A DNA stretch of 53,818 nucleotides from Elusimicrobiaceae bacterium (GTDB lineage Bacteria; Elusimicrobiota; Elusimicrobia; Elusimicrobiales; Elusimicrobiaceae). Position 1 is the first letter of the stretch. The number at the start of each line of letters is the position of its first letter. Where the stretch lies: NCBI GenBank assembly GCA_017528825.1, contig JAFXOI010000039.1, positions 1-53,818 of the forward strand, given 5' to 3'. Below the pieces are notes generated by a model that was given only the letters and a program-made list of their open reading frames with translations, made no database searches and had not been told where the DNA came from. The translations under genes were made by a program, and so were the position numbers. Shown piece after piece: positions 6,135 through 42,183 of this stretch.

Positions 6135-6322
6135 AACAAAAACGGCTGCATTGTTTGCGTGCTTATCACAGTCCACAAATAAAACAGCCGTAGTTTATTA
6201 TTTTTTCAAATAATAAACATTCGGCACAAAACAGCGGGTTTCGAAGGCCCGCTATTTTGTACCTCAAACAGGCTGTTCTTGGCGTGATAAGCCCCCTTGC
6301 GGGTACTCCGTTTCTGCAACGG
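6135..6322 (-). ncRNA. Structured leader RNA, copy C (P1 + outer arm + U-run)
   Basis: Read on the minus strand in RNA order: hairpin 1 (6318-6322/6308-6312), short hairpin 2 (6301-6303/6294-6296), a 9-bp P1 stem (6284-6292 with 6161-6169) enclosing a 13-bp hairpin with one G-U pair (6248-6260/6226-6238) and an 8-bp hairpin (6211-6218/6193-6200). The internal arm ACGGCTG (6185-6191) can pair with CAGCCGT (6142-6148), which lies 12 nt beyond P1 and runs straight into a U-run. The pilin ATG is about 28 nt further on. The same layout occurs at 21259-21404 and 42032-42183. The pairing is seen by eye; function as riboswitch, attenuator or sRNA is inference. Confidence 0.6.
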
Positions 6323-6387
6323 TTCCAAAAACAGATTCAAATTTTAACTACATTCCTAGTATAACAAATTTTGTATCTTACTTTTTA

Positions 6388-6393
6388 TATAAT
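6388..6393 (+). promoter_or_regulatory. -10 box of DUF167 gene, leaderless
   Basis: TATAAT ends 6 nt before the ATG at 6400, putting the expected transcription start at or next to the start codon. No Shine-Dalgarno is present. Confidence 0.5.
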
Positions 6394-6399
6394 ACCTGT

Positions 6400-6627
6400 A
6401 TGGAAACCTATCTTAAAGTAAAAGTACACGCGGATGAAAAGAAGGAAAAATTAGTCCAAAAATCTGCCGATACTTTCGAAATCTGGGTCAAAGCCCCTGC
6501 CGAGCGCGGACAAGCCAATGCCGCGGTGCGCAGCGCGTTAGCGGCGCATTTGGGCCTGCCGGAAAATAAGCTGTCTCTTATCAAGGGCGCCACTTCGCCC
6601 GCCAAAATTTTCCTACTGCGCAAATAA
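6400..6627 (+). CDS. DUF167 / YggU-family small protein
   Basis: A 75-aa protein matching the YggU (UPF0235/DUF167) fold: N-terminal KVKVHADEKK strand, central VKAPAERGQANAAV motif, and C-terminal LIKGATSPAKIFLL. These are the conserved family positions (Ala-Pro, Gly-x-Ala-Asn, Gly-x-x-Ser/Thr-x-x-Lys). The family is widespread and of unknown biochemical role. The gene is single, between a divergent pilin leader and the ribosomal operon, and its start codon lies directly after a -10 box. Confidence 0.88.
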   Translation: METYLKVKVHADEKKEKLVQKSADTFEIWVKAPAERGQANAAVRSALAAHLGLPENKLSLIKGATSPAKIFLLRK

Positions 6628-6628
6628 G

Positions 6629-6659
6629 TTGCATCGTAACCCCCAAAATTTGTTATAAT
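6629..6659 (+). promoter_or_regulatory. Promoter of rpsF-ssb-rpsR-rplI operon
   Basis: TTGCAT, a 19-nt spacer and TATAAT with an extended TGT element. The predicted start near 6666 gives a GC-rich leader of about 130 nt before rpsF. In many bacteria that leader binds the S6:S18 complex for autoregulation. The leader here has paired G+C-rich segments, but the specific S6:S18 motif could not be confirmed by eye. Confidence 0.55.
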
Positions 6660-6794
6660 ATCTACAAGGAAAGAATCGCCCGGGCCGCAGGTGAGTTAGT
6701 GCCCAAAAGAGATTCAATAAAACCCACGCGAGGCGCAGTAAGGCCTTGTGAGGTTTTTTGTCTGAAAAATCAGAGAAGAAAAAAGTATAAAACT

Positions 6795-7112: not shown

Positions 7113-7121
7113 GGCGTGTGT

Positions 7122-14961: not shown

Positions 14962-15003
14962 CCAAATTCCTTATGCAGAGTAACAGGGAATATGCAGGGA
15001 ATA
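14962..15003. repeat. AATTCC...AACAGGGAA repeat, copy 3
   Basis: CCAAATTCCTTATGCAGAG, then TAACAGGGAATATGCAGGGAAT. Same order and spacing as 12271-12313. It marks the junction between the amidase/DUF4424 pair and the SIR2 operon. Confidence 0.6.
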
Positions 15004-15081
15004 TATTATAATGATAGTAGATATATAGAAAAGATAAATTATTTTCGAACAATAAATAATTGGAGTATTATAATTACATTT

Positions 15082-16113
15082 ATGGCAGTAGAGAATAAAT
15101 TTGACTTGATTCCTGCAATTCCTAGTGAGTTATTATCTCAATTTCTAAATGATAATGTAATAGTTTTCGTGGGAAATGGCATTTCTCGATTAGCGGGAGT
15201 TCCATCTTGGCGTGAACTTGCTTTAAGGTACTTGGAAAATTGGTTCGAAAAAGGGAATCTGTCTTATGATGCATACAATAAATTAAAGGATGAGTCAGAT
15301 CCTTTAACGCTTCTCACTATTTGTGCTGGGAAACTGGGAAAAGATGAGTTGAAGAATGAGCTTTATGCGAGATTAACTCAGTTTATTAAACAAGATTCTG
15401 AAGAAGAGAAAAAGATATTGCGTATTTATAGATACATAAGGGATTTTCATGCAGGATATATTACCACAAACTATGATGATTATTTAGAGATGAGTACTCC
15501 TACAAGTGAAATCGAAGATTTGCAAGGAATAGAGTTTTTGCAACCATATAAAATAAATTTACAGAAAACATTAAATCGTTTGGGACTGAATGATAAAATG
15601 GAAAAAGCCCGAGATAGTATAGTATATTTGCATGGCAAAGCGTCTAAACTTGGGGTTGTTGAGAAAGATGCCGTGCGCAATGACATTATTTTGACACTCG
15701 AAGATTATTTAGAACATTACAAGGATGATGATGGGTTAGGAAAAACTTTTTTAAGTAATGTGTTTGCCAATCATGTTTTTCTATTTATAGGTTTTGGCCT
15801 CAAGGAATTTGAGATTATTCAGCATATTAGGCGCCCTGATAATAGTCACAGCCATTATATACTATTGGGGGTATCAGATTATGAATATGACATATCCGAT
15901 CAATATAGGAATTATTACAGTATCCTAAATATTACTCCAGTTTTCTACAGCACATCTCAAAAAGGCTATGCGCAATTAGAAGACGTTTTGAGAGAATGGT
16001 CTTTAAATATTAGGACTGCTAGAATGGAAAGATTGAAAAACTTACAAAATGCTGAACAAAAGGCAAAAAATTTGGAAAATATCCGGAGATTGGGTAATGG
16101 AACCTTTAGATAA
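15082..16113 (+). CDS. SIR2-domain NADase-like defence protein
   Basis: 343 aa from ATG 15082 (an upstream in-frame start only adds low-complexity sequence; no clear Shine-Dalgarno for either). It is a SIR2 fold with the NAD-binding motif VGNGIS (30-35, SIR2_2-type GxGxS), TTNYD (128-132 with N130 and D132), the catalytic His in VYLHG (H184) and GFGL (237-240). SIR2 domains in prokaryotic immunity usually hydrolyse NAD+ rather than deacetylate. The protein has no sensor domain of its own, and a short C-terminal helix (about 315-343) may bind its partner. The gene overlaps the next by 17 nt, and the operon is strikingly AT-rich compared with neighbours, a sign of transfer. Confidence 0.88.
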   Translation: MAVENKFDLIPAIPSELLSQFLNDNVIVFVGNGISRLAGVPSWRELALRYLENWFEKGNLSYDAYNKLKDESDPLTLLTICAGKLGKDELKNELYARLTQFIKQDSEEEKKILRIYRYIRDFHAGYITTNYDDYLEMSTPTSEIEDLQGIEFLQPYKINLQKTLNRLGLNDKMEKARDSIVYLHGKASKLGVVEKDAVRNDIILTLEDYLEHYKDDDGLGKTFLSNVFANHVFLFIGFGLKEFEIIQHIRRPDNSHSHYILLGVSDYEYDISDQYRNYYSILNITPVFYSTSQKGYAQLEDVLREWSLNIRTARMERLKNLQNAEQKAKNLENIRRLGNGTFR

Positions 16114-19100
16114 GGAAGAAAATGAGATTTTAAAGTTGATATGTGCAGAATCGACTGCTTTAGAGGATTTTCTAATTGAATCCTCAAATCCTCGCTTTTT
16201 GCCTTTTCTAAATGGAAGAAATGATAAAAATTTGAATATTTTTCAAAATGGATTTGATCCTCAAGCTACCCAGTGGAAAGATCATTCTGTTTTTTGGTTA
16301 CCGGCTATATATTTGGAGAGAATTTCTAATAGATTACGTCAAGAATCTGATGTGTCAGATTCAGTACGCCAAGAATATGTATGTAATATCCAACAAGCTC
16401 TTGAGGACATAATTAAAGGTTATGATAAAGAAAATAAAAAGGACCTCGATGTTGTACAACTACTGCTACATATAATTCAAACTCAACATATATCTTCTTT
16501 AGATAATCGGCTTATTGATTTTATTATTATAAATCTAAAAAATGAAAAATCTTCGGCAGTAGTGCGTAATGCTCTCCCTATCATTAGAGAAATGTTATTT
16601 AATGGTAAGGATATTGAGCTTATAGAAAAATATATAGAACTTATGTTGGAATTATTGCCAAATGAACACGGAGCATCAGATAATCGAAGTTATTTTATAG
16701 AGGAGTTTCTATTAGATCAGGAAATTATAGAAAAATTGGCAGATATTTGTTCTGAAGCTTTTTTAATCAAATTAGCTAATAATTTAACACAAACATTGGA
16801 TCAGCGTCCTGAAGTGGTTTTGAAAGATGGACTAAAAATTCAAATCCAAGAGGATAGCTCCTTACGAGTAACTCTTACAGATACAAGTATTGACTTTACA
16901 TTACAATATTTTGAATTCAAAGACAAATATGCAAAAATTAAACCTATTATAGAAAAGGAGTTAGAAAATTATAATGGAACTAAAGATAGATTCCTTGTGA
17001 ATAAAATTTTGTATTGGTATACGTATATATGGAGTGATTTAACTTACATATCTTACCCATCTTTGTACGCTAAGCCTAAAGGATATTATAAAGCTCGTCA
17101 AGCGGTTTTAATTTATTTGTTAAAAGAAATTTTATTAATCAAATTAACAAAACAAGGAGTAGATAAATTTTTGAATACATACCAAATTATTACTTCTCAA
17201 AATAAGTATTTTATTTTTAAACGAATTTTCTTATACTGTTATGCCAAAGAATTTGAACAGACACGAAATGAATTATTAGCTTTGCTTGAACACGAGAAGT
17301 ATCTGTTATTCTCTTTGTATTTTGAAGCAGAGATGTATAGCTTATTGGAAAATAATGTTGAGAAGTTTACGCCTATAGAAAAGAAGAAAATAGAAGAAAT
17401 AATCGAAAATGGTCCCTATTCAGAAAGAATATGGGATGAAAATAGGGCGGATGGAACCACTCTAAGCAGAGCAAAAAAATTTTGGCAACAAGAATGGTAT
17501 GCCCCATTAAACAACGTGGAACCTTTTAAACATAAATATGAAGAATTGAGGCAACAAACTCATATGAAAGAGTTTTTTAATTTTCGAGATGGGACAGAAA
17601 TCCGGCCACTTCATTACAATTCTTTGTTAGGGGACATGGAAATTCTCTCACTACTAGAAAATGCTCCAAAAGAGTATGTTACTAAAATTGTTGAATTTAC
17701 TAAACGCGAGCCAAATCGAGTAATTGCTTCTATGCATGAGATGGCCCATACTGAAGGGAATGTAGAGCAGATGCGACGTCTGGCAGAAAATTATCCAGCA
17801 ATTATAACTGAGTCAATAACCGAATTAACGGAACTGGCACCCATTTATGTGCGGAATATTTTGTATGGTTTACGTGCGACGAAGGATAGAAAAAATATTA
17901 AATGGAAAAAAGTGAATTTCTTTGTAGAAAGCTATGTGGATCGTTTATTTCAAATTAAACAAGTTGTGCCAGTAAATGAAAGTACAGAAGATATTATAAA
18001 TGATGAACCTGAGGGGAAAGTTGCGGAATCTATTGTGGGCGCATGGGCTGATGCGATATCTATTCAAGAGGATAGAGACTATTTTGATATATCAGAAATT
18101 AAAAGATTGTTATTAAAATATTTAGAATTACTCTTAGAAAATTACTCTTTTGATAGTGAAGCTATGTATTACTTACAAGGAGGGAAAAAATATCCCTTAG
18201 ATTATTTGACTTTAGCTATAAATACAGAAGTTGGAAAAGTATTAGAAAAATTAATTAGGCTGCTACTTTCTGAGGATGTTCATAATTTAGTAACATTACA
18301 AAATGTTTATGATATGATGATAGAACGAAGAGTAGTAGAAGCACATGTTTTTCTAGGTTTCTATTTTATTTATTTTTATCAAAATTTAAAGGAATGGACC
18401 AAAAACACAATTGATTCTATATTGAACTTATCCAGAAACGAAGAAACATATAAATACTGGGAAATGTTTTTTGAGGGATTTATTAAAAGCAATAATCAAT
18501 ATTTGGATTATTATGAATGGATGTTTGCACATTATGCCAGAGCTATAGAAACATACAATGGCAAGGGAAATGAGAGACTTATAAACCTTTTTGTTCAATT
18601 TTTCATATCTGGTAAAGATGAATTAAACGATAAATCTTTAATTTGTTTGTGTTGGGAAAAATCGGCATTTCAGCTCTTATCTGGATGTATAAGAGATATT
18701 TCTTTTTCTTTAAATAGAGCCAAATCGTATGGTTATACTCCGACAGAAGAAGATATCGAACAAGAAAAAAGGGTTCTTCCAAAAGCTAAAAAATTATGGG
18801 ACTTCTTATGGAGAAAAATAGATGATATGCATAATATCTCGTTGGCGGAAAGTCCTACAGAACAGAAGAAGCTATTTGCAGATATGTTAGAACTGATACC
18901 ATCTTTGTCTTCCTTGAACAATCAAACGGAAGGAAGGATTTCTCAGCTTATAGATTGTGAAGATCCGGCGTTTTGGGGAACATCTTCCCTATTTAGTAAT
19001 TTAATGTATTTAGTAGAAAAAAATGATAATCAGAAAAACGAAATCCTAAATCTAGCAAAACTATATCATAAAATCATTCAAAGAATGGATTATTTTACAA

Positions 19101-19234
19101 TTTCCGAACAACATCAAGAGATTATAAATTTATTGAAACGGTATATTAGCGATTCCGAAATAAAGTTTCAAATAGATTTAATCAAAAATGTTTATGTAGA
19201 TAAAAAATGGAATCAATATTTGACTTGGTTTTAA
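16097..19234 (+). CDS. 1045-aa helical partner of SIR2 protein, family unknown
   Basis: 1045 aa from ATG 16097 (GGAG 8 nt upstream). The sequence is rich in Leu, Glu, Lys, Ile and Tyr and looks all-helical with repeated helix pairs across most of its length, as in HEAT- or TPR-like solenoids. No Walker A, nuclease, helicase or membrane motif was seen. Its start lies inside the SIR2 gene, so the two are translationally coupled and probably form a complex. By analogy with DSR- and Avs-type SIR2 systems the large protein may sense phage structures and switch on NAD+ loss. Its C-terminal third might belong to a DUF that accompanies SIR2 proteins (DUF4020 comes to mind), but this was not verifiable. 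Confidence 0.8.
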   Translation: MEPLDKEENEILKLICAESTALEDFLIESSNPRFLPFLNGRNDKNLNIFQNGFDPQATQWKDHSVFWLPAIYLERISNRLRQESDVSDSVRQEYVCNIQQALEDIIKGYDKENKKDLDVVQLLLHIIQTQHISSLDNRLIDFIIINLKNEKSSAVVRNALPIIREMLFNGKDIELIEKYIELMLELLPNEHGASDNRSYFIEEFLLDQEIIEKLADICSEAFLIKLANNLTQTLDQRPEVVLKDGLKIQIQEDSSLRVTLTDTSIDFTLQYFEFKDKYAKIKPIIEKELENYNGTKDRFLVNKILYWYTYIWSDLTYISYPSLYAKPKGYYKARQAVLIYLLKEILLIKLTKQGVDKFLNTYQIITSQNKYFIFKRIFLYCYAKEFEQTRNELLALLEHEKYLLFSLYFEAEMYSLLENNVEKFTPIEKKKIEEIIENGPYSERIWDENRADGTTLSRAKKFWQQEWYAPLNNVEPFKHKYEELRQQTHMKEFFNFRDGTEIRPLHYNSLLGDMEILSLLENAPKEYVTKIVEFTKREPNRVIASMHEMAHTEGNVEQMRRLAENYPAIITESITELTELAPIYVRNILYGLRATKDRKNIKWKKVNFFVESYVDRLFQIKQVVPVNESTEDIINDEPEGKVAESIVGAWADAISIQEDRDYFDISEIKRLLLKYLELLLENYSFDSEAMYYLQGGKKYPLDYLTLAINTEVGKVLEKLIRLLLSEDVHNLVTLQNVYDMMIERRVVEAHVFLGFYFIYFYQNLKEWTKNTIDSILNLSRNEETYKYWEMFFEGFIKSNNQYLDYYEWMFAHYARAIETYNGKGNERLINLFVQFFISGKDELNDKSLICLCWEKSAFQLLSGCIRDISFSLNRAKSYGYTPTEEDIEQEKRVLPKAKKLWDFLWRKIDDMHNISLAESPTEQKKLFADMLELIPSLSSLNNQTEGRISQLIDCEDPAFWGTSSLFSNLMYLVEKNDNQKNEILNLAKLYHKIIQRMDYFTISEQHQEIINLLKRYISDSEIKFQIDLIKNVYVDKKWNQYLTWF

Positions 19235-19249
19235 AGTAAGGTTATAGTT

Positions 19250-20176
19250 ATGCGCTCAAAAAATATTAAAAAATTAAATCGGTTATTGTACTTGCTCAAT
19301 CGATTGGATGGAACGGGTGTGCGCGTGCAAAAAGAGGCACGAGAATTGGAAGTCACGGAACGTACTATCCAGCGAGATTTGCGGGATATTGAGCTTGGGG
19401 GATTTCCTATCTATAAAGCAGCGCCGGGAGTGTATAAGTTTATTGAGGGGTTTTCGCTTAAGAAAATAGATTTAACCGATAAAGAAGCCTCTTTGCTACT
19501 TATGATGCAAGAATTAATTGCGCCGTTCGGAAAGCGGTTTCAGGAGCCGTTTGAGCGGTTGCGTCAAAAAGTGTTACGCGTACCGGACGAATCTCCATTT
19601 TATATCAAAATGCCGAAGGGACGCCAATACCAAGAGACAAAAATCACGCGCGTGCTGGAAAAAGGGATTTTGGAGCACACGGAAGTGCGTATGTCGCTGG
19701 CGGCCGATATCACGCGTAAACTAACTTACGAGTTAAAACCGCTTAAAATTATGAATTATGACGGTTTTTGGTATCTTTTGGGTATCAATGCCTATAAGCA
19801 GGTGCGAAAATTCCGGCTTGATCGTATTTTGGATGCTATCAATACCGATAAACCGTTTAAAGTAGCCAAGAATATCCAAAAAATGCTGGCTGAAAGCCAC
19901 AACATTTGGTTCGGTGAGAAACGGGATAAAACTGTGTCGTTCATCGTGCCGGCCCAATTTGCGGCGTATTTTAAGCAGAAAGATTATTTCCCTATGCAGA
20001 AAATCCGCAAAACGCAAAAAAACGGAGATATCGTAGTTGAAACACGTGTGAGCAACTACCGTGAAATTATCCCTACGGTGCTAAGTTGGCTTGAACATAT
20101 TACGCTAATTAGTCCGGCTGATTTTAAACAACTCATCCGGCAAATTCTGCGTCAAGCCGATAAACGGATGAAATAA
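19250..20176 (+). CDS. WYL-domain HTH transcription regulator
   Basis: 308 aa. N-terminal winged helix-turn-helix (VRVQKEARELEVTERTIQRD), then a WYL domain (ELKPLKIMNYDGFWYLLG... FRLDRI) and a C-terminal WCX-like extension. WYL regulators bind DNA through the HTH and small ligands or nucleic acid through the WYL fold, and many control phage-defence or CRISPR loci. The gene starts 15 nt after the helical partner and ends at a strong terminator, so it is the last gene of the SIR2 operon and its likely regulator. Its codon use is less AT-rich than the two genes before it. Confidence 0.9.
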   Translation: MRSKNIKKLNRLLYLLNRLDGTGVRVQKEARELEVTERTIQRDLRDIELGGFPIYKAAPGVYKFIEGFSLKKIDLTDKEASLLLMMQELIAPFGKRFQEPFERLRQKVLRVPDESPFYIKMPKGRQYQETKITRVLEKGILEHTEVRMSLAADITRKLTYELKPLKIMNYDGFWYLLGINAYKQVRKFRLDRILDAINTDKPFKVAKNIQKMLAESHNIWFGEKRDKTVSFIVPAQFAAYFKQKDYFPMQKIRKTQKNGDIVVETRVSNYREIIPTVLSWLEHITLISPADFKQLIRQILRQADKRMK

Positions 20177-20728: not shown

Positions 20729-21157
20729 TTATTTATTTTTGTTCCTTTGCCATTCTTGGATCTCTAATTGATAGTCGGCAATTTGTCGTTGGAGCCGTTT
20801 TTCGTTATACTCATCGGCCCGTTGCAGAGATTCAATTTCCCGGTTGTATTTACGGGAGAGTTCCTCAATCGTGCGCTTGTAGTGACGGGATAATTCATCT
20901 ATTTCACGTTGCCAACGTTGTTCTAGCTGACGTTTCTGTTGCTTGAAATTATCATTTTCCTGCTTTTCTTCTTGTCCTTGTTGGCGCAAAATCTGACTCT
21001 TGTGTTCGTAACGGCGCAACTGCAGGTTTTTTAATTCTTCAGCCGCGCGGGTAATCTTATTTTTCAGGTCGCTGGGAAGTTGATAAGGCAAATTCCCAGT
21101 GGCGTTGCGATACTGTCGTTCAATTTCCGATTTTTCTGAGTTTGAGAAGAAAAACAT
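20729..21157 (-). CDS. Coiled-coil protein of unknown function
   Basis: 142 aa from ATG 21157, preceded by AAGGAGG with 4-nt spacing. After a short N-terminal stretch with MFFFSNSEKSEIERQY, about 100 residues are rich in Gln, Arg, Glu and Lys with heptad-like repeats (for example WQREIDELSRHYKRTIEEL), predicting a long coiled coil. No enzyme motif. It is first in a two-gene unit with the nuclease-like gene and has a long leader that includes a structured RNA (21259-21404) and a 16-bp palindrome (21226-21241). Confidence 0.7.
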   Translation of the reverse strand: MFFFSNSEKSEIERQYRNATGNLPYQLPSDLKNKITRAAEELKNLQLRRYEHKSQILRQQGQEEKQENDNFKQQKRQLEQRWQREIDELSRHYKRTIEELSRKYNREIESLQRADEYNEKRLQRQIADYQLEIQEWQRNKNK

Positions 21158-21258: not shown

Positions 21259-21404
21259 AAAAAAGGCGGCAATCTTTTTAGGTAGCTGAGAACCGACCCA
21301 AAACGATACGCCGCCTGCCCACCCCATAAAGGGTGTGCAAAAGACGACTTCGTTTTCGTTTCTCAGCTCGCCGGATACCGGCGGGGTTATGCCAGACACA
21401 TAAC
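21259..21404 (-). ncRNA. Structured leader RNA, copy A
   Basis: In RNA order on the minus strand: hairpin 1 (GTTATG/CATAAC, 21399-21404 with 21386-21391), hairpin 2 (CGCCGG/CCGGCG, 21369-21383), a 9-bp P1 (21360-21368 with 21284-21292), an internal hairpin CACCC/GGGTG (21331-21335 with 21320-21324), then GGCAGGCGGCG and TTGGGTC. GCCGCC (21265-21270) lies 13 nt past P1, can pair with the internal GGCGGC (21310-21315) and runs into six U. The order and spacings match 42032-42183 with different stem sequences. The gene-free stretch 21158-21527 holds this RNA, the palindrome and AT-rich TATAAT-like boxes near 21428 and 21448. Confidence 0.65.
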
Positions 21405-21527
21405 GCCAAAAACAAGTCCAAAATCAAATTATATTACGACTGTTTATATTATAACTTTTTACAACAAATGAGGGGGAGTGTTGCCAGCCGGGTCTAATTT
21501 TTATATAGAAAAGATATAGGTAATTTT

Positions 21528-22486: not shown

Positions 22487-23758
22487 ATGGAAACCATAAA
22501 AATCAACAAACTAAAACCACATCCCCAAAATGCGCGCACACACAGCAAAAAACAGATTCGCCAAATTGCCCAAAGTATTGAGATATTTGGTTTTACAAAT
22601 CCCGTTCTTATAGACGGGAAAAATAATATACTGGCCGGGCATGGGCGCGTAGAGGCAGCAAAATTAGCCAAACTTGCCGAAGTTCCTTGCGTACGGATTA
22701 CACACCTGACGCCCGCCCAAAAGAGAGCCTATATTTTGGCTGATAACCGTCTTGCGGAACTGTCCGGCTGGGACGAAGACTTGCTTCAGGTGGAGCTGGA
22801 AGAAATCAATCATTTGGATTGTGATTTTGATTTGACCCTGACAGGGTTTGAAACGCCGGAGATAGATAATCTTCTGCAGCCGGATACCGCACCCGCTTCG
22901 GAGAAGACCGATTTCCTGTCAGCTGATATTCCGCTCCGCGTTCAACCCGGTGATTTGTGGCAACTGGGCCCTCATAAACTGTTTTGCGGGGATGCTACTA
23001 AAGCACAATCATACGCACAGTTGCTTGGAAAGGAAAAGGCTAACCTGATTGTAACGGACGCACCGTACAACGTCAAAATTTCGGGTCACGTTCGCAGTAG
23101 CAAAAAATACCGTGAGTTCGCTATGGCCTCAGGCGAAATGAGCCAAAGCGAATTTACAGAGTTCCTATATGGGGTGTTTATGCTGTTGGTCCAATACAGT
23201 GTGCCCGGAAGTTTGCACTATGCGTTTATGGATTGGCGGCATATAGGAGAGATGTTACAAGCCGGGCGGGTATATAGCGAACTAAAAAATATCTGCGTGT
23301 GGAATAAATTAAGTGGCGGAATGGGTAGTTTATACCGCAGCCAGCATGAACTTGTTTTCGTGTTCAAAAATGGAACAAGTCCACATACCAATAACATTGA
23401 ACTGGGGGTACACGGGCGCTATCGCACGAATGTGTGGGACTATCCCGGCATCTATCTAAACGGTAAAGCCAACCGCGCCAATATCCACTTACATCCCACG
23501 GTAAAGCCCGTTGGGTTGCTGGCAGATATTTTATTGGATGCGAGCCGCCGCAAGGAGATTGTGCTGGACCCGTTCGGCGGGAGCGGCAGTACATTACTGG
23601 CCGCAGAGCGTACGGGGCGTCGTGCCCGATTAATGGAAATTGACCCGCATTATTGCGATGTGATTTTATACCGGTATGAACAACTGGGAAATAAGGAAAT
23701 AAAACTTTTACAGAGAGGAGAAACAGATGAAAATACGCAGAAAACAAATTCAAAATAA
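22487..23758 (+). CDS. ParB-fused DNA (adenine/cytosine-N4) methyltransferase
   Basis: 423 aa. Residues 1-130 are a ParB/Srx-type domain (LKPHPQNARTHSKKQI, ILAGHGRVEAAK). Residues 150-420 are a beta-class methyltransferase with catalytic motif IV before the SAM motif: DAPY (191-194) and, near residue 360, LDPFGGSGST. Motif IV usually reads DPPY or NPPY; the Ala here is unusual. This protein type is common in phage-like cassettes beside DUF5681 and terminase genes. It may protect element DNA or mark packaging sites. The next gene starts inside its 3' end. Confidence 0.9.
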   Translation: METIKINKLKPHPQNARTHSKKQIRQIAQSIEIFGFTNPVLIDGKNNILAGHGRVEAAKLAKLAEVPCVRITHLTPAQKRAYILADNRLAELSGWDEDLLQVELEEINHLDCDFDLTLTGFETPEIDNLLQPDTAPASEKTDFLSADIPLRVQPGDLWQLGPHKLFCGDATKAQSYAQLLGKEKANLIVTDAPYNVKISGHVRSSKKYREFAMASGEMSQSEFTEFLYGVFMLLVQYSVPGSLHYAFMDWRHIGEMLQAGRVYSELKNICVWNKLSGGMGSLYRSQHELVFVFKNGTSPHTNNIELGVHGRYRTNVWDYPGIYLNGKANRANIHLHPTVKPVGLLADILLDASRRKEIVLDPFGGSGSTLLAAERTGRRARLMEIDPHYCDVILYRYEQLGNKEIKLLQRGETDENTQKTNSK

Positions 23759-25587: not shown

Positions 25588-25685
25588 GGTGCTATAAAAG
25601 GACCGACAAAGGGTTGTCGGTTTCCTTTTGTATCATAAACTGGACTTATTTGCCGCAAGTAAGGCGTAATGAGTTGGGAGGATTT

Positions 25686-26474
25686 ATGGAAACTTATAAC
25701 AATCAGCAACTATTGCAAGAATTTCTACAACGTATGTCTTGGAAACAGGAAACTGGACACTCCGGGTATGAAACTTCGTTACAGGGGTTAAATAGACAAA
25801 CAGGCGGTTTGCAACCGGGATGTTGCTATTTGTTTGTGGGACCGGATGCGGTACTTAATCGGGCTTTTTTTGCTACATTGGTCCATGATTTGTGTTGGAC
25901 GCAGCAATTAACTACTCGTTGGATTTGTTGTAGGCAACTGGCTGGAGATATTATGGCTTTGTTGTTAAGCCGCGCAATAGGGAAATCCCCGGTTCTTTTA
26001 TCTGCTAAAAACAATCAAAATGAGGTACAAGAGACGGCTGGAGAATTTCAAAATCGTCCGTTAGATATTTGGGAAACGAATACGGACACATTCTTAGATG
26101 ATGAAATTCATCATCTTTGGGATACGGCAGGTAAACAAGTATTTATTGTTGAGGACTTAAATTTGGTCCAATCACGATTACAAAATAAGATTAGTTTTTT
26201 AACGGAATATGCGCGAGTTTTTAAGAGTGTGGTAATTGTCAGTTCGGTCATATCTATCAAACATTATACACCTCAAAACGTGATTGGTAAACTCCGTTGG
26301 TTGGGAGAAGTAGATCCTTACTTTGATTGCATTAGTTCGTTGACGGCTAGAGATAAGTTAGGTCCTACAGTTGTTACACTACAAAACGTGAAAAACCGTC
26401 TTTTGCCTTGTAGCACTGCTGAATTTACCTATACGATGGGGGAAATGAATTTTAAGGATAAGGGGACGCTATGA
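25686..26474 (+). CDS. RecA/DnaB-fold protein lacking P-loop, paralogue 1
   Basis: 262 aa from ATG 25686 (GGAGG 5-9 nt upstream). The N-terminal half resembles DnaB/KaiC-type ATPase cores: SLQGLNRQTGGLQPGCCYLF followed by VGPDAVLNRA where GxxxxGK[ST] is expected (residues 51-60). The P-loop Lys and Thr/Ser are absent. It aligns along its length with the next gene (TGGL..G....F.G and LHDLCW/LHSLCW-type segments), so the two are tandem paralogues. The fold is probably kept without ATP hydrolysis. The genes overlap by 4 nt. Confidence 0.65.
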   Translation: METYNNQQLLQEFLQRMSWKQETGHSGYETSLQGLNRQTGGLQPGCCYLFVGPDAVLNRAFFATLVHDLCWTQQLTTRWICCRQLAGDIMALLLSRAIGKSPVLLSAKNNQNEVQETAGEFQNRPLDIWETNTDTFLDDEIHHLWDTAGKQVFIVEDLNLVQSRLQNKISFLTEYARVFKSVVIVSSVISIKHYTPQNVIGKLRWLGEVDPYFDCISSLTARDKLGPTVVTLQNVKNRLLPCSTAEFTYTMGEMNFKDKGTL

Positions 26475-27346
26475 TTACGTACGAAACCAGACATTTAGTA
26501 GATAAATTCTTATCGGATATGGAATATCAGACGAAGAATCCTTCCGCAGAGCAGGCCAAATTAGCTTCAACGGGTTTTTGTACGGGATTAAAAGGCTTTG
26601 ATTGGCAAATTGGCGGTCTGCGGCGCGGAGATGTATTTTTGCTAATCGGAAGCCAAGAACAGATTAACACGACATTTTTAGCGTTTATTTTACACTCGTT
26701 GTGTTGGAAACAACAAATTCCTGTACAAGTTTATTCATGTGCAAATCCGGTGGACCGATGGTTACCTTATTTGTTATCAGCCGAGTTAAAGATGTCTTAT
26801 TCTACTTTGCGGTGGGGGGCGGTTACTGAAGAAAAAGCACGTGTCAAACAGGCAAGTCAATACGTGAAAAATTTGCCACTTTGGCTTAGTGACTTGGAGT
26901 TAAACTTAGCACGATGGAGCGATTTTGAATTATCCAAAGGCCAAATCCTATTGATAGATGGATTTCTATTTGAAAGAGGAGGAAAGGGTGAGGAGTTTTT
27001 GCGCAATTTAAAACATATTGCCTTGCAAAAGCAAAAAATTATCTTAATTAGCACGAAACTTGACGAAGAGATGTGTCACTATCCGGATGTTTATACCAAT
27101 TTACGCTTATTTGGTTTATTGAGCAGCATGTGTGATTTTGTGGGGCTATTAAGTTTATGTGTTCCAGGGTCGAATACGATTGTGGATGCGACGAGTGATA
27201 CAGGGGAAATGAAAATTATTGAGCAAGATTTTTCACCTATGGAATTGGTATCGTTGCGTATGTTATACAATTCACGTTTGCCACGCTCTTATGCCAATTT
27301 CCTATATAAATTTGATGCGGTAGATTTCAGAGATACAATCAATTAA
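26471..27346 (+). CDS. RecA/DnaB-fold protein lacking P-loop, paralogue 2
   Basis: 291 aa; ATG overlaps the preceding stop (ATGA). It begins like DnaB-type cores (TGFCTGLKGFDWQIGGLRRGDVFLLIG), but the loop is SQEQINTT (61-68) in place of GKT. A later strand QILLIDGFLF fits the Walker B position with one acidic residue. It is less diverged from active DnaB-family enzymes than paralogue 1. With the previous gene it may form a hetero-oligomer that handles element DNA. That is inference. Confidence 0.65.
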   Translation: MITYETRHLVDKFLSDMEYQTKNPSAEQAKLASTGFCTGLKGFDWQIGGLRRGDVFLLIGSQEQINTTFLAFILHSLCWKQQIPVQVYSCANPVDRWLPYLLSAELKMSYSTLRWGAVTEEKARVKQASQYVKNLPLWLSDLELNLARWSDFELSKGQILLIDGFLFERGGKGEEFLRNLKHIALQKQKIILISTKLDEEMCHYPDVYTNLRLFGLLSSMCDFVGLLSLCVPGSNTIVDATSDTGEMKIIEQDFSPMELVSLRMLYNSRLPRSYANFLYKFDAVDFRDTIN

Positions 27347-27382
27347 ATAATTTTGATAAATTGACTTGACTTATCGCCCGAT

Positions 27383-27421
27383 AGTAAGCGTGAATGTAGT
27401 ACGAAGTAAAAATCGCTTACT
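27383..27421. promoter_or_regulatory. Inverted repeat upstream of DUF2924 gene
   Basis: AGTAAGCG (27383-27390) and CGCTTACT (27414-27421) form a perfect 8-bp inverted repeat 23 nt apart, just before the AAGGAG of the next gene. A TTGACTTGACT tract lies upstream. It may be an operator, a leader hairpin or a recombinase-related site. Confidence 0.45.
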
Positions 27422-27435
27422 TAAGGAGATAAGTT

Positions 27436-27744
27436 ATGAAGAAAAATACCAAAAAATCAGTAGCAAAAAATACGCCTGCAAAACCTGCTGTTTTGCGGGT
27501 GGTTAGTCCCATTGTGCAAACAGAAACCACGGTTGAAAACATACCTGTCCGGGCACGAGATAACCGTCTACCAGCGCCGGGAAGCATCATCACTAAAACC
27601 TACCGCGGTAAAACCATAGAAGTAAAAGTATTAGAGAATGGCTTTGAATACGAAGGTAATGTATTCAAAAGTATTTCGCGCGTGGCGATGACGATTGTAA
27701 AACGTCACATCAGCGGTTATGTATTCTTTGGGCTTACTAAATGA
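27436..27744 (+). CDS. Short DUF2924-like protein
   Basis: 102 aa. A basic, Lys/Ala/Pro-rich N-terminus precedes the DUF2924 C-terminal module: PGSIITKTYRGKTIEVKVLENGFEYEGNVFKS, then ISRVAMTIVKRHISGYVFFGL. The module (Gly-x-x-x-x-Lys-x-Tyr-x-Gly..., FFGL end) recurs in the gene at 27941. DUF2924 proteins accompany serine recombinases in many genomes; function unknown, DNA binding likely. AAGGAG precedes the ATG. Confidence 0.8.
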   Translation: MKKNTKKSVAKNTPAKPAVLRVVSPIVQTETTVENIPVRARDNRLPAPGSIITKTYRGKTIEVKVLENGFEYEGNVFKSISRVAMTIVKRHISGYVFFGLTK

Positions 27745-27944
27745 CACCGCGTCATCTGCCACCAGTATCGGGGCGATTTGTAAAGGGCCGTTCGGGCAAT
27801 CCCCTAGGGCGGCCTCCCCGAAATTTTCGTGAAAGAGATATCGTTTTGTTAGTTGCTAAATTCTTTGAAACTTTAGCCAAGGCCTATTGTAATCAAAGCC
27901 GTTCGGTGGAAAAAATCCGTCAGATTAAAGATATTTTATCATGA
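27741..27944 (+). CDS. Short DUF5681-like protein
   Basis: 67 aa. It contains GRFVKGRSGNPLGRPPRN, the DUF5681 motif seen also at 23727, followed by a short helix. It overlaps both neighbours by 4 nt. It is likely a truncated or minimal family member. Confidence 0.72.
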   Translation: MTPRHLPPVSGRFVKGRSGNPLGRPPRNFRERDIVLLVAKFFETLAKAYCNQSRSVEKIRQIKDILS

Positions 27945-28390
27945 GAAGAAAGTGCTATTTGCCCAAAAGTTATGAAGAACTAAAAGGACTATCCCCCAAA
28001 GAGCTGCGGTTTTATTGGAACGCTTTTTATGCCAGCCCTTTGAGAGGTGTTAAGGCCAAGTTGCGCCCTTTGTGGTATGCCATTCAATGTGAATTAGGGC
28101 GTTGTAAATTGCAAGGAAAATACATCACGCGGCTTGACCGGTATGCGAGCAATCCCGACAAGTATATTGAGCATGCGCATAAAAAGCGTTATGCACTCGC
28201 TGTTGGCACGATACTGACTAAAACCTATAAAGGTCGGATGTATCAAGTGACCGTAAAAGGGGAAAACGCTTATGAATGGGAAGGAAAAATATATCCCAAT
28301 TTAACAGCGCTGGCGGAGAAAATCGTGCGGGCCCACGTCAGCGGCCCTAAATTTTTCGGATTAACAGGGAAAAAATATGCCCAAAATTAA
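27941..28390 (+). CDS. DUF2924 protein
   Basis: 149 aa, full-length DUF2924: an N-terminal helical part (SYEELKGLSPKELRFYWNAF... LRPLWYAIQCELG), then the module AVGTILTKTYKGRMYQVTV and HVSGPKFFGL. It overlaps the recombinase gene by 14 nt, the standard pairing for this family, which suggests it helps or controls the recombinase. Confidence 0.85.
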   Translation: MRRKCYLPKSYEELKGLSPKELRFYWNAFYASPLRGVKAKLRPLWYAIQCELGRCKLQGKYITRLDRYASNPDKYIEHAHKKRYALAVGTILTKTYKGRMYQVTVKGENAYEWEGKIYPNLTALAEKIVRAHVSGPKFFGLTGKKYAQN

Positions 28391-30035
28391 TTGTGCTATA
28401 TATACCCGCAAATCGACGGAGCGTGGGCTCGAAATGGAGTTTAACTCGCTCCAAAACCAAGAAGAAGCGTGCAAGGCCTATATCCTCTCACAAGCTTTTA
28501 ACGGGTGGAAGTATTATAAGACCTTTGAAGACGGCGGGATTAGCGGCGGCACGATGGAGCGTCCCGGTTTGCAAGCGCTTTTGGAAGAAATCCGTGCCCG
28601 TAATATACAGGTGGTTGTCGTCTATAAAGTGGACCGCCTGTCGCGCTCTATCTTTGACTTCCATAAAATGATGCAGGAATTTGCCAAGCACGAATGTAAC
28701 TTCGTGTCTATCACGCAGTCGTTCGACACGAGCAACTCTATGGGCAAATTAACGCTTAATATGCTCCTGTCCTTTGCCCAGTTTGAGCGGGAAGTATCTG
28801 CCGAGCGCGTGCGCGATAAAATCGCGGCCAGCAAAGCCAAAGGACTATGGATGGGAGGCACTCCACCGATTGGGTATGATGCCAATGAGCGGCAGCTTAT
28901 CGTAAACGAGGGTGAGGCGCAATTAGTGCGGCTGATTTTTCAAAAATATATAGAAACTGAGAATATGTTTGCGGTGGCCGATTATCTTAACGCACAGGGT
29001 ATTTGTACGAAGAAATGGGTGGCACGGCGCAGCAAACGCGAACATGGCGGCGGGCAATTTTATAAAAGTAATGTGCAGCGCATTTTGACAAACCCGCTTT
29101 ATATCGGCAAAATCGCACACTATGCCAAAAACAAAGTGTATGAAGGCAAGCATCCGGGGATTGTACCACCGGATTTATGGGATCAAGTTCAAACGCTTAT
29201 ACGCCGAAGAATTAACGACCCGAACGCATTTCTGCACTATAAATGCCATAAAACAGTTTTGGCAGGCAAATTATATGACGACAAGGGGCAGAATTTTCGG
29301 TTCACTTCGTCAAAAAAGCAAGGCAAAAAGTTCCTGTATTACTACAACGGAGTGGGCGGGCATTATCTATCCGTAGAGCAGTTGGACAGATTTGTACTAA
29401 ATATGCTCAAAACGGCGGATTTTGACGAGATAGAGCCATTAGCGGATATGAGTGCCATTACTGATGCTCAATTGAGCGCATGGATTACCAAAGCTACCTG
29501 CCAAACGGTAGGTAAGAAACATTATTTAACAGTGTTTTTGGATGAAAAGCAGATAAAGACAGATTTGGGGAATTGTTCCAAAATGTCAGGTCAGGTGGAT
29601 GCCAAACCCCTCAAAATAGAGCGCATAGAAGATACAATTTACCTGCGGGATAGTTTTATGGTGGATAATATATCGTCTGTACGACTACGGAATGGGAATG
29701 CCCGTAACATCTTAACTATACGGCAACTCAATGAAAGTTTAGTGCGCGCCTTGGCACGAGGTTGGCAACTTAAAAAGAGGATAGAACAGGGGATTATTAT
29801 CCGGGAGTTAGAAAAAGAAATGCACATGACCAAACGCACGATTACACGGTACGTCAATTTATGTTATTTATCACCGCGTATAGTGGGGGATATCTTGGAA
29901 TACAAGAATCCTGCGAGTTTAACCTTGCGCGAGCTTATGAATCTAGCCGAGGGGCAGGTGGATTTTGAGAGGCAGGAAAAGGGATGGAATGGGGAGAAAG
30001 GTCATAGGTTCGAAAGTAAAAGATATATTACTTGA
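28377..30035 (+). CDS. Large serine recombinase
   Basis: 552 aa. The resolvase catalytic domain has IYTRKS with the nucleophile Ser13, VVVYKVDRLSRS and the long E-helix region FAQFEREVSAERVRDKI. A recombinase domain (GGTPPIGYD..., SNVQRILTNPLYIG) and a C-terminal region with HTH-like ITRYVNLCYLSP follow. A zinc ribbon like that of many phage integrases is not obvious. It should integrate or excise the cassette by strand exchange at short att sites, which could not be located by eye. In the 229 bases after it no gene is seen. Confidence 0.93.
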   Translation: MPKINCAIYTRKSTERGLEMEFNSLQNQEEACKAYILSQAFNGWKYYKTFEDGGISGGTMERPGLQALLEEIRARNIQVVVVYKVDRLSRSIFDFHKMMQEFAKHECNFVSITQSFDTSNSMGKLTLNMLLSFAQFEREVSAERVRDKIAASKAKGLWMGGTPPIGYDANERQLIVNEGEAQLVRLIFQKYIETENMFAVADYLNAQGICTKKWVARRSKREHGGGQFYKSNVQRILTNPLYIGKIAHYAKNKVYEGKHPGIVPPDLWDQVQTLIRRRINDPNAFLHYKCHKTVLAGKLYDDKGQNFRFTSSKKQGKKFLYYYNGVGGHYLSVEQLDRFVLNMLKTADFDEIEPLADMSAITDAQLSAWITKATCQTVGKKHYLTVFLDEKQIKTDLGNCSKMSGQVDAKPLKIERIEDTIYLRDSFMVDNISSVRLRNGNARNILTIRQLNESLVRALARGWQLKKRIEQGIIIRELEKEMHMTKRTITRYVNLCYLSPRIVGDILEYKNPASLTLRELMNLAEGQVDFERQEKGWNGEKGHRFESKRYIT

Positions 30036-31095: not shown

Positions 31096-31171
31096 TGGTG
31101 GACCGGACAGGACTTGAACCTGTGACCTTCCGCGTGTAAGGCGGACGCTCTACCAACTAAGCTACCGATCC
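31096..31171 (-). tRNA. tRNA-Val (UAC anticodon)
   Basis: 76 nt with encoded CCA. Acceptor stem GGATCGG/CCGGTCC (one G-U), D arm GCTTAGTTGGTAGAGC, anticodon stem-loop CCGCC-TTACACG-CGG with TAC at the anticodon, and T arm CAGGTTCAAGTCCTG. The 3' end points toward the accessory island, the usual arrangement for a tRNA used as integration site. Confidence 0.96.
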
Positions 31172-38259: not shown

Positions 38260-38265
38260 AAAAAT

Positions 38266-39497: not shown

Positions 39498-40474
39498 ATC
39501 AATCAGCGGCGATAGCCTATCTGCAAAAGAGTGTGCGCGGCCATGTGCCGCCGGCAATGTTGTTTTGCGGGCCTTCGGGCGTGGGCAAGAAAAAAACCGC
39601 CTTGGAAGTGGCAAAAGCATTAAATTGTTTGGATGAACAAGCTCGGGCCCAGGGGGACAGTTGCGGAGTCTGTGCGCATTGTAAAGCCATTGAGCAAGGC
39701 ACATACGCAGATGTAGTAGTGGCAGATTTTCTGTATCAGGCGCGTCTGGAACTAAAAAAAGAGCCTTCGGATAAGGCATACGCAGAAGAACTGGAGAAAG
39801 AGCTGGCCAAGCAACAGCGTATTAAAGTGGACACGATCCGTGATATCACGGCTAAAAGTCAGCAAAAAAGTGCGGTCGGCGGTTGGAAAATTTTTATTGT
39901 AGATGAAGCCCAAAGTATGCAGGCCGAAGCGGCCAATGCTCTCTTGAAATTTATTGAAGAACCGCCGCAAAAAACAATTTGGATTTTGCTGACAGATAAA
40001 AAATCGGCCATGCTCAAAACGATTTTATCCCGTTGCCAGCTTTTGCAATTTGCACCTCTGCCGGTGGAAACGGTAGAACAATTGTTGCGGCAAGTACAAC
40101 CCGACATTGCAGATCCGTCTTTAGCAGCGCAGTATGCAGCCGGTTCTCTCACGCGGGCTTTGCGTGCGGCACAAGCGTTGGAAGTATTGCAGACTACGGA
40201 GCAGGGAGCTACATGGCCGGCCGCGGTAGCCGCTGGCTTGTCTCGCACCGTAGCGGTAGCTAGGCAAGAAGCCCAAGCGGTGTTGGATATTTTGATATTG
40301 GCTTTGCACCGTCAATGGACACACGCCGATGGGCAACAACGTATCGTTTTACAGCAATTATTACAAAAAATGGAGTCTTACAAAACAGCTGTATTGCGCA
40401 ATGTATCACCGGCACTGGTACTGGAAACAGCTTTGATGTGCATTACGCAACGAAAAATATCAATTTTTGAATAA
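39476..40474 (+). CDS. holB: DNA polymerase III delta' subunit
   Basis: 332 aa clamp-loader subunit. It has a Walker A-like GPSGVGKKKTA, a zinc-binding set CGVCAHCKA (with an upstream Cys), FIVDEAQSMQAEAANALLKFIEEPP and TILSRCQ (the sensor 1 SRC motif). Delta' loads the sliding clamp with tau and delta. The C-terminal part is a helical collar domain. It overlaps tmk and is followed by metG 10 nt after the stop; tmk-holB adjacency is common. Confidence 0.93.
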   Translation: MSFREILNQSAAIAYLQKSVRGHVPPAMLFCGPSGVGKKKTALEVAKALNCLDEQARAQGDSCGVCAHCKAIEQGTYADVVVADFLYQARLELKKEPSDKAYAEELEKELAKQQRIKVDTIRDITAKSQQKSAVGGWKIFIVDEAQSMQAEAANALLKFIEEPPQKTIWILLTDKKSAMLKTILSRCQLLQFAPLPVETVEQLLRQVQPDIADPSLAAQYAAGSLTRALRAAQALEVLQTTEQGATWPAAVAAGLSRTVAVARQEAQAVLDILILALHRQWTHADGQQRIVLQQLLQKMESYKTAVLRNVSPALVLETALMCITQRKISIFE

Positions 40475-40484
40475 TGGAGTATTT

Positions 40485-41990
40485 ATGAGCAAAAAATTCT
40501 TTATTACCACCCCCATCTATTATGTCAATTCCGTGCCGCATATCGGGCATGCCTATACGACGATTGCCTTAGATATTTTGGCGCGTTATAAACGCCAACA
40601 GGGTGCAGACGTACATTTTCTGACCGGAACCGATGAACACGGTGCCAACATTGAAAAATCGGCCGCGGCCAAAGGGGTCAGCCCCAAAGAATGGACGGAC
40701 CAAATTTCCGCCCAGTATCGCCAGATGTGGAAAGATTTGAATATTTCCTACGACGATTTTATCCGCACCACCGATGCTAAGCATGAGCAAGTGGTGCAAG
40801 CCGTGTTTGAAAAACTGCTCAAACAAGGCGATATTTATAAAGGTTCTTACAGCGGAAAATACTGCCTCTCATGCGAGCAGTATTACGATGAAAGCGAAAT
40901 GTTGGAAGGCGGATTGTGCCCGGTGCATAAACGCCCGCTGACGGAAATTCACGAAGAAACTTATTTCTTCAAACTTTCCAAATATGAGCAGCCGCTACTT
41001 AAATTTTACGCCGAACATCCGGACTTTTTAAGCCCCAAATATCGCGCCAACGAAATTTTAAGTTTTGTCAAAGGCGGCCTGCGTGATTTATCTGTTACGC
41101 GCACTAAGGTCAAATGGGGCGTGCCCGTCCCATCCGATCCGGCCCATACGGTGTATGTGTGGTTTGACGCGCTGATTAACTATATTTCCGCCACGGGAGC
41201 GGGTACGATTTTGTGTGAGGATAAAACCTTGCACACCGAGCATTTGAAAAAAATCGGTGCGGAGAAATTTGAAGATTTTTGGCCGGCTGATCTACATTTG
41301 GTCGGTAAAGAAATTTTCCGCTTTCACAGCGTGATTTGGCCGGCTATGCTCATGGCGCTTGGCTTGCCGCTTCCCACCAAAGTGTTTGCGCATGGTTGGT
41401 GGACGGTAGAAGGGGAGAAAATGTCCAAATCTTTGGGCAATGTAGTTAACCCCGTGGAACTGGCACAAAAATACGGCGTGGACCCGGTGCGCGCCTTCTT
41501 ATTTAGAGAAGTACCGTTTGGCCAAGACGGCGATTTTTCCATGCAGAGTTTCAAAAACCGCTACAATTCCGATTTGGCCAATAATATCGGCAATCTTTTG
41601 TCGCGCACGCTGAATATGGCGGCAAAAAATGTGGGAGAGTTGCCAGAGGCGGCGGGCGCGGGTTCTGACGTAGAGAAAAACGCGTTGGAAACGGCCAAAG
41701 CCATAGACGGATTTTACAATGAACTGGCTTTTGATAAGGTACTGGAAAGCATTTACGGTTTTGCCGGCGAACTTAATAAACTGGTCAATGACAAAAAACC
41801 GTGGGAACTGGCTAAAACCGATCCGGCCGCCGCAAAAGAAATTTTGTTACAATTAGTGTGCGGACTACGCTTTATCGCGCAATGGATAGAGCCGTTTATG
41901 CCGACGGTTGCAGCAGAAATGAAACGGCGCTTGGCGGCGGGCAAAATTGAAAAATACGCTCCGCTGTTCCCGCGTTTAGAGGAGAAATAA
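40485..41990 (+). CDS. metG: Methionyl-tRNA synthetase
   Basis: 501 aa from ATG 40485, chosen for GGAG 8 nt upstream and the conserved KFFITTPIYYVNSVPHIGHAYT start; a start six codons earlier adds unconserved residues. HIGH motif is HIGH, KMSKS motif is KMSKSLGN. A zinc knuckle is visible as CLSCEQYY...CPVH. No C-terminal tRNA-binding domain, as in many short MetRS forms. Last gene of the kdsC operon; the structured RNA at 42032 follows. Confidence 0.97.
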   Translation: MSKKFFITTPIYYVNSVPHIGHAYTTIALDILARYKRQQGADVHFLTGTDEHGANIEKSAAAKGVSPKEWTDQISAQYRQMWKDLNISYDDFIRTTDAKHEQVVQAVFEKLLKQGDIYKGSYSGKYCLSCEQYYDESEMLEGGLCPVHKRPLTEIHEETYFFKLSKYEQPLLKFYAEHPDFLSPKYRANEILSFVKGGLRDLSVTRTKVKWGVPVPSDPAHTVYVWFDALINYISATGAGTILCEDKTLHTEHLKKIGAEKFEDFWPADLHLVGKEIFRFHSVIWPAMLMALGLPLPTKVFAHGWWTVEGEKMSKSLGNVVNPVELAQKYGVDPVRAFLFREVPFGQDGDFSMQSFKNRYNSDLANNIGNLLSRTLNMAAKNVGELPEAAGAGSDVEKNALETAKAIDGFYNELAFDKVLESIYGFAGELNKLVNDKKPWELAKTDPAAAKEILLQLVCGLRFIAQWIEPFMPTVAAEMKRRLAAGKIEKYAPLFPRLEEK

Positions 41991-42031
41991 AAAAAGAATA
42001 ACATTTACAATTTGAAGATTATTTGTTGGAA

Positions 42032-42183
42032 GTACGGGGAGAGCCCGTACATGGTCTAATGAAAATTAGACTGCTTCGAATCCTTCAAATGGTCGCTTGC
42101 ATTTGCCTGCCCCTTTTTAGGGGCAGGCGGCGGCGATTATTACTTGGGTCATTCGAAGCGCTCACGTAATACGCCGCTTTTTT
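42032..42183 (+). ncRNA. Structured leader RNA, copy B
   Basis: Hairpin 1 GTACGGG/CCCGTAC (42032-42050), hairpin 2 GTCTAAT/ATTAGAC (42054-42071), 9-bp P1 GCTTCGAAT/ATTCGAAGC (42073-42081 with 42151-42159) enclosing hairpin 3 CTGCCCCT/AGGGGCAG and the segment GGCGGCGGCG with TTGGGTC. CGCCGC (42172-42177), 12 nt beyond P1, can pair with the internal GCGGCG and runs into six U. The spacing equals the copies at 21259 and 6135, with each stem changed in sequence but paired. Gene-free stretch 41991-42222; the pilin start is about 40 nt after the U-run. Confidence 0.68.

Follow-up and report, generated by a model that had tools for sequence, protein, structure and literature searches.

Three copies of a structured RNA element were found in a 53,818-nucleotide (nt) stretch of DNA from an Elusimicrobiaceae bacterium (GenBank assembly GCA_017528825.1, contig JAFXOI010000039.1; hereafter the window), and this element appears to be a new family of attenuator-type leader RNA. 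Placed in the 5' leaders of surface genes, and chiefly of pilin genes, it is predicted to attenuate transcription in cis, a reading which is held with high confidence on computational grounds and to which we would give a probability of about 0.78. The element looks like a previously undescribed RNA switch family with tens of copies in some gut Elusimicrobia. Titles and abstract openings of the literature on Elusimicrobia riboswitches, pilins or noncoding RNA and on self-complementary kissing loops of leaders, with subscription papers mostly outside this scope, contained nothing on this RNA. Its importance lies in the combination of a structured leader RNA lacking an Rfam 15 match, a very high copy number in some genomes and a link with the exceptionally many pilin genes of these gut bacteria.

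The three copies, called here sites A, B and C (Table 1), were found to share the plan which a first-pass annotation of this DNA had described: a P1 helix of 9-10 bp enclosing an internal segment and a GG[AT]C motif, the closing of P1, and then 12-13 nt, a complementary arm and a U tract. Hairpin 1 (H1) had been placed correctly, but it is not the start of the element, which lies about 12-15 nt earlier at an overlooked segment 1; also missed were the existence of a long and a short subfamily and the self-complementarity of the P2 loop. The single internal hairpin of that description holds for sites B and C, which are of the short form, but the long form of site A has two, P2 and P3. The pilin genes reported at 28-40 nt beyond two of the copies start 30 nt (A) and 39 nt (C) past the U tract. 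The gene labelled coiled-coil starts 101 nt after site B, and a near-identical protein start follows a similar element in another genome (G019, copy L306). Searched at the gathering threshold, Rfam 15 gave only a tRNA, both over the whole window and over 20 loci, most of them with elements, and low-threshold scans of the three sites returned sub-threshold matches only.

The full order is segment 1, H1, H2, P1 5' arm, segment 2, P2, P3, segment 3, P1 3' arm, segment 4 and U tract. Segment 1 is complementary to the stretch just 3' of the P1 5' arm, that is, segment 2; as segment 1 resembles segment 3 and segment 2 resembles segment 4, the pairings 1:2, 2:3 and 3:4 are alternatives. Copies of the long form have a three-way junction, formed by P2, P3 and the 2:3 helix that closes it, where those of the short form carry a single internal hairpin.

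The covariance models recovered 221 distinct sequences, two of them truncated at contig ends and one (L103) of the short form. In 205 of these P1 spans 8 bp or more, against 7.7% when the arms of different copies were mixed. Alignment A1, a plain MAFFT alignment of 13 copies not fitted to structure, showed changes on both sides in 31 of 44 pairs. Model structures guided alignments A2, A3 and A4, which are biased in their favour; in A3, which holds 95 relatives' copies fitted to model R1 (built from A1), 96.4% of the cells were paired compared to 71.7% after shuffling, and the covariation score was 0.733 against 0.245 for shuffled and at most 0.146 for slid alignments. Changes on both sides were seen in all 10 P1 pairs, all 16 P2 pairs, all 11 P3 pairs and two of the seven 2:3 pairs. 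For the 3:4 pairing, 12 of 17 pairs were changed on both sides (84.5% of cells paired, 75.5% shuffled), and for 1:2, in the 137 of 139 copies aligned in one relatives' alignment, four of 11 (97.0% and 95.8%). The consensus fold of seven short-form sequences contained 1:2, H1, H2 and 3:4 and lacked P1, with both-side changes in 11 of its 41 pairs. Stem sequences therefore vary while pairing is kept, which bears out the earlier interpretation as selection on structure.

Minimum-energy folding was carried out on 170 of the 205 copies whose P1 reaches 8 bp; the other 35 have no recognised segment 1 (30), 3 (3) or 4 (2). When the RNA ended before segment 4, P1 formed in 167 copies and 2:3 in 166. 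Once segment 4 was included, a U-tailed terminator formed in 160 copies (median -23.2 kcal/mol over the 170 long copies) and 1:2 in 160, and P1 was kept in nine; the calculation excludes pseudoknots, and so neither shows nor excludes the co-existence of P1 and terminator. The alternative terminator excluding P1, which had been proposed from the window alone, was thus reproduced in most copies, and two exclusive folds including a U-tract terminator are predicted as in an attenuator. Upstream of segment 1, a -10-like TATAMT box was found in 31 of 43 copies of the own genome (median distance 37 nt) compared to four of 44 shuffled sequences, and in 102 of 183 copies of the whole set compared to 17 of 221; this is a consensus match only, and the shuffles were drawn from a slightly different stretch than the count. 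A promoter-like site upstream and a same-strand gene downstream accordingly frame the element.

From these folds a possible course of events can be outlined. Segment 1 would pair with segment 2 as the RNA emerges. After synthesis of segment 3 and of the P1 3' arm, 2:3 stacked on the copy-specific P1 may replace 1:2 and serve as antiterminator. Emergence of segment 4 would then allow the 3:4 intrinsic terminator to form and segment 2 to return to segment 1, with P1 either broken or kept as a loop-loop pseudoknot at termination. The winning branch would determine read-through into the downstream gene, and attenuation in cells would presumably respond to some trigger, be it a ligand, a protein or the concentration of the leader itself.

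The genes that follow the element are mostly, not only, cell-surface genes. A pilin signature, defined loosely and not calibrated against chance, was present within about 300 nt downstream of 38 of 44 copies in the own genome and of 89 of 139 copies overall. Twenty non-pilin downstream proteins, picked by eye and not at random from 50, were compared with Pfam. Five outer-membrane beta-barrels, two family-2 glycosyltransferases, RgpF, a family-9 glycosyltransferase, YrbL, a sulfatase-domain protein, TRL-like, DUF4823, a weak MptE-like match, a zinc ribbon and an HSDR-like domain were identified, and four had no Pfam match. The pilin repertoire itself is large, with 113 N_methyl pilin-like matches in the own genome (1.53 Mb, 41 contigs) and 146 to at least 150 in the congeners G011, G026 and G032, whereas two genomes from a different family of the order have 8 and 11. 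A third pilin-like gene of the window (47192-47725) had no element in front by model R1 or by R3, a model built from seven short copies; the switch is hence carried by only part of the pilin set. This gene is flanked by HExxH-type proteins at 45679-47124 (HEIGHSLGL) and 47773-49371 (HEVGHSLSL), which by eye appear metalloprotease-like.

The family is numerous in the own genome and in its relatives. Of the first 30 pilin loci inspected in the own genome, many showed the same plan; over this genome R1 gave 45 matches (E up to 2.2e-5), with site C and C1:191643 among them belonging to the short subfamily, and R3 gave seven clear short copies (E up to 1e-6). The total comes to about 50 copies, roughly 43 long like site A and seven short like sites B and C. 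Over 61 genomes, the own included, at least 33 had an R1 match, which is at least 33 of the 37 genomes within the genus, and none of the 24 genomes in other genera of the order had one among the matches listed. In a sample of the phylum at least 85 of 294 genomes matched, with the genus contributing 55, a sister genus 16 and another family (f15) 14; as 49 candidates were scored in the former search and 10 per genome in the latter, these counts are lower bounds. Model R2, built from the 95 relatives' copies, counted 95 copies in G026, 45 in the own genome (G000), 29 in G032, 12 in G031 and 11 in G036, and 0-9 in the remaining 15 of 20 genomes; G026 is a congener with a 1.1 Mb assembly estimated to be 72% complete. 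Deeper searches found up to 25 copies in one of the 14 f15 genomes, whereas of five own-family genomes two had a single weak match (E 0.0015 and 0.008). Three genera of the own family, g13, g15 and g16, gave further matches with R3 (E 5e-6 to 2e-30).

An exact pattern of the 3' half of the long form, run on one genome per species for 84,980 species, found 64 stretches, of which 61 are titled as Elusimicrobiota or a subgroup and three only as 'uncultured bacterium'. All family matches found belong to Elusimicrobiota or to records with only that title; an exact pattern misses diverged copies, so absence outside the phylum is not proved by it. The long set excludes L241, L251, L255 and the short copies, and some match positions are mis-set, that of L241 certainly; of 18 additional loci in G026 five could be parsed, some of them poorly (L277, L289). 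An element together with its zinc-ribbon gene, the protein being about 95-99% identical, occurs in two genera (L068 compared to L171 and L172), and this near-identity suggests a recent transfer. In G090 a short-form element precedes a protein start resembling that of the zinc-ribbon gene (L303).

P1 was found to be specific for the copy. Among 41 P1 arms of the own genome no two were identical over the 8 positions adjoining segment 2, and the arms differ even where the rest of the element is up to 88% identical; those of L038 and L050 have their first 8 letters in common. When 192 arms were compared between genomes, 66 pairs were identical over 9 nt, where 0.84 would be expected; as many of these are plain orthologues the pairs are not independent. 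Identical arms lie partly at loci with related flanks (L055/L206, L043/L138 and L118/L214), where the arm was retained and the middle of the element was merely 68-83% identical. In L055/L206 the P2 loop class differs as well (TCATGA and TAATTA), which may reflect swapping of the central part between sibling copies while P1 changes slowly. Selection for P1 divergence beyond chance within a genome was not seen; arm pairs agreeing at 6-7 of 8 positions were slightly commoner than in column shuffles (17 compared to 9.6 in the own genome). A third copy of the P1 arm near its own locus, as a target in trans, was rejected, with 12 extra occurrences over 205 copies compared to 18.4 for the arms of other copies.

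The apical loop of P2 is self-complementary in most long copies. Among the loops that could be scored (212 of 221 for P2 and P3, 179 of 221 for H1 and H2), a palindrome of at least 4 nt was present in 200 of the 212 P2 loops compared to 81.1 for shuffled letters, and one of at least 6 nt in 144 compared to 12.6; counting distinct loops only, the latter was present in 22 of 36 compared to 2.3. P3, H1 and H2 loops were near chance (12, 1 and 9 compared to 10.4, 2.7 and 6.2). Of the 179 H2 loops, 75 read GAAA, GATA, GTAA or GCAA. The classes are TAATTA (78), GATC (46), TTATAA (28), TCATGA (18), AGCT (10), TTGCAA (10), TTCGAA (8), GACG (6), TCGCT (2) and six others once each, that is, seven recurrent palindromes with GACG as the commonest exception. 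Loop sequence varies and self-complementarity stays, a pattern that is expected from selection for homotypic loop-loop pairing. According to PMC7357161 and PMC516450, the dimerisation initiation site (DIS) of human immunodeficiency virus type 1 (HIV-1) kisses through a 6-nt palindrome in an apical loop, and the GACG tetraloop, which holds no 4-nt palindrome, kisses via two base pairs in retroviral RNA. The long form thus resembles the DIS in keeping a self-complementary loop despite sequence change.

It is suggested with moderate confidence from these loops that the leader RNAs dimerise through P2. Two leaders of the same loop class would kiss, and a nascent leader may be influenced by a second, perhaps already terminated, leader; for such trans regulation the confidence is low to moderate. 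A wider proposal can be made only tentatively, and we consider it doubtful: that RNA-RNA self-recognition rather than a metabolite sets a surface-gene regulon, with terminated and nascent leaders of one class kissing via P2 in seven or eight compatibility groups and P1 diversity preventing mispairing of siblings. A bacterial leader family whose self-complementary loops are interchangeable would offer a natural system for testing whether RNA dimerisation serves as a regulatory signal.

Several observations weigh against these interpretations. The 1:2 and 2:3 pairings are nearly invariant and so have little covariation support, and with P1 kept so rarely in the best full-length fold, P1 and terminator may merely exclude each other. 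No pilin signature follows 50 of the 139 copies, some neighbours such as those with the HSDR-like domain and the zinc ribbon are not surface genes, and RNA copy number tracks pilin number only loosely, since G011 with its at least 150 N_methyl matches has six RNA copies. As regards dimerisation, 12 of the 212 P2 loops have no palindrome (six GACG, two TCGCT, and TCGC, CGAA, CTCATTA and CTCGCTA once each), only one loop sequence makes up the TCATGA class and only one the GACG class, and the 212 copies are related and therefore not independent cases. A palindromic loop is missing from short-form copies, sites B and C included; the basic switch can therefore do without dimerisation.

An orphan small-molecule riboswitch is a reading which overlaps with that of an attenuator and deserves serious attention, although we think it probably incorrect; the 2:3/P2/P3 three-way junction would be its aptamer, and the palindromic loop would only make a contact that is internal or induced by the ligand. 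The junction letters are conserved in alignment A1, and the predicted folds are switch-like. The neighbours are surface genes as for the cyclic di-GMP (c-di-GMP) riboswitches of classes I (GEMM) and II, which lie in several copies per genome in leaders of pilus and other surface genes; the element is like them in both respects and, unlike them, has no Rfam match, these families being absent at the gathering threshold and from the sub-threshold lists of the three sites. However, the short form has a single hairpin in place of the junction, and a ligand pocket would leave the interchangeable self-complementary loops unexplained. GGDEF matches occurred in 20 of 20 genomes checked, four of them without an R2 copy, and a link to c-di-GMP synthesis was set aside as uninformative, GGDEF being present with or without the RNA. 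Control by a protein, such as a NusG paralogue or an RNA-binding protein acting on an attenuator or antitermination leader, is unlikely. Its attraction is H1 as a recognition hairpin: the loops GCAGA (29), GAAGA (29) and GTAGA (10) make up 68 of the 179 scored, a recurrent GNAGA pentaloop which we take to resemble lambda boxB. One NusG match was found in each of 18 genomes and none in two incomplete ones, so a leader of RfaH/LoaP type was rejected for want of an extra NusG in 20 genomes, a search which did not cover N-like peptides and other RNA-binding proteins.

A DNA-level repeat before surface genes, such as a mobile or recombination site or a cruciform that aids their shuffling, is quite improbable. 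Copy numbers from 0 to 95 between congeners, the L055/L206 pair with its retained arm and differing middle and loop, and the near-identical element and gene in two genera would suit it, but pair-preserving changes including G-U pairs, the U tract, the promoter-like box and the preferred same-strand downstream gene fit an RNA. Two exact patterns found no match in viral contigs and site A none in phages and plasmids by blastn, transposases and target duplications lying outside these searches. That the copies are ordinary terminators of upstream genes which resemble each other by chance is hardly credible; each copy does end in a terminator-like hairpin, but chance would not provide 221 distinct model-recovered sequences, covariation and a preferred class of downstream gene.

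Attenuators with alternating hairpins are known from the trp and his leaders, the T-box and riboswitch expression platforms, and the element is like them in that an antiterminator and a U-tailed terminator exclude each other in a 5' leader. It differs from them in its copy-specific P1 and its tens of copies in some genomes; no leader peptide was noticed in it, with no systematic search for one, and no T-box or riboswitch family of Rfam matched. With the HIV-1 DIS and the GACG loops of Moloney murine leukaemia and sarcoma viruses (MoMuLV/MoMuSV) it has in common a hairpin of the 5' leader whose apical loop contains a 6-nt palindrome or is a GACG tetraloop (PMC7357161, PMC516450). The element, in contrast, is bacterial, has seven recurrent palindromes and GACG in one family and is part of an attenuator; several of its palindromes are all A/T whereas that of HIV-1 is G/C-rich, and its dimer is only inferred. 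OLE, ROOL and GOLLD are presented in PMC12286853 as large and ornate homo-oligomeric bacterial RNAs; the element resembles them in the proposed self-assembly of a bacterial RNA and differs in being a leader of about 200 nt with a terminator end.

Within the window, a strict descriptor was applied that required 8 or more perfect pairs in P1, exact complementarity of an inner arm to the sequence preceding a T run, and closing of P1 between these two. It matched only sites A, B and C in the 53.8 kb, compared to one match each in four of 40 dinucleotide shuffles (four in total). The descriptor was composed after inspection of the three sites, and homology is therefore the stronger test. A looser descriptor gave one extra, evidently chance, match near 40.8 kb (minus strand), and a still looser one four more scattered in the window. 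Site C, absent from the training of R1, was detected by it in the window with 38.1 bits (E 7.8e-7), and site B, absent from that of R3, with 41.4 bits (E 3.4e-8) by R3 and with merely 19.6 bits (E 0.015) by R1. Site A, which is copy L034 of the copy set, is in R1 and site C in R3 by construction.

Table 1. Positions of the element parts and downstream genes at the three sites of the window
Site	Feature	Position	Strand	Remark
A	Segment 1	6324-6334	-	pairs with segment 2
A	Hairpin H1	6308-6322	-	pentaloop GCAGA
A	Hairpin H2	6294-6303	-	GCAA loop
A	P1 5' arm	6283-6292	-	covariation-supported
A	Segment 2	6271-6282	-	pairs with 1 or 3
A	Hairpin P2	6223-6263	-	apical loop of 9 nt, CCTTCGAAA, 6239-6247; palindrome TTCGAA, 6240-6245
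A	Hairpin P3	6193-6218	-	
A	Segment 3	6176-6190	-	antiterminator or terminator 5' half
A	P1 3' arm	6161-6170	-	within terminator loop
A	Segment 4 and U tract	6138-6159	-	intrinsic terminator 3' half
A	Type IV pilin-like gene	5541-6107	-	N_methyl, PF07963, E 5.5e-8
B	Segment 1	21406-21418	-	
B	Hairpin H1	21386-21404	-	
B	Hairpin H2	21369-21383	-	
B	P1 5' arm	21360-21368	-	
B	Segment 2	21343-21359	-	
B	Single internal hairpin	21320-21335	-	short subfamily, without palindromic loop
B	Segment 3	21297-21315	-	
B	P1 3' arm	21284-21292	-	
B	Segment 4 and U tract	21259-21283	-	
B	Putative coiled-coil protein gene	20729-21157	-	label of the first-pass annotation; no Pfam match
C	Segment 1	42017-42030	+	
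C	Hairpin H1	42032-42050	+	pentaloop GAGAG
C	Hairpin H2	42054-42071	+	
C	P1 5' arm	42073-42081	+	
C	Segment 2	42082-42096	+	
C	Single internal hairpin	42105-42128	+	
C	Segment 3	42130-42149	+	
C	P1 3' arm	42151-42159	+	
C	Segment 4 and U tract	42160-42183	+	
C	Type IV pilin-like gene	42223-42786	+	PF07963, E 1.6e-9

The window also holds other features of interest. Near site B there is a defence-like cluster (14992-20176) with a SIR2-domain protein (Pfam SIR2_2) and a WYL/helix-turn-helix regulator. The best PADLOC match of the SIR2 protein is Dsr1, over the N-terminal part of the profile only, and a 1061-residue protein whose gene overlaps that of SIR2 has no Pfam or PADLOC match. A tRNA is located at 31099-31171, and a phage-like stretch (22487-30035) carries a ParB/N6_N4 methylase fusion, a terminase with an RNaseH-like domain and a large serine recombinase.

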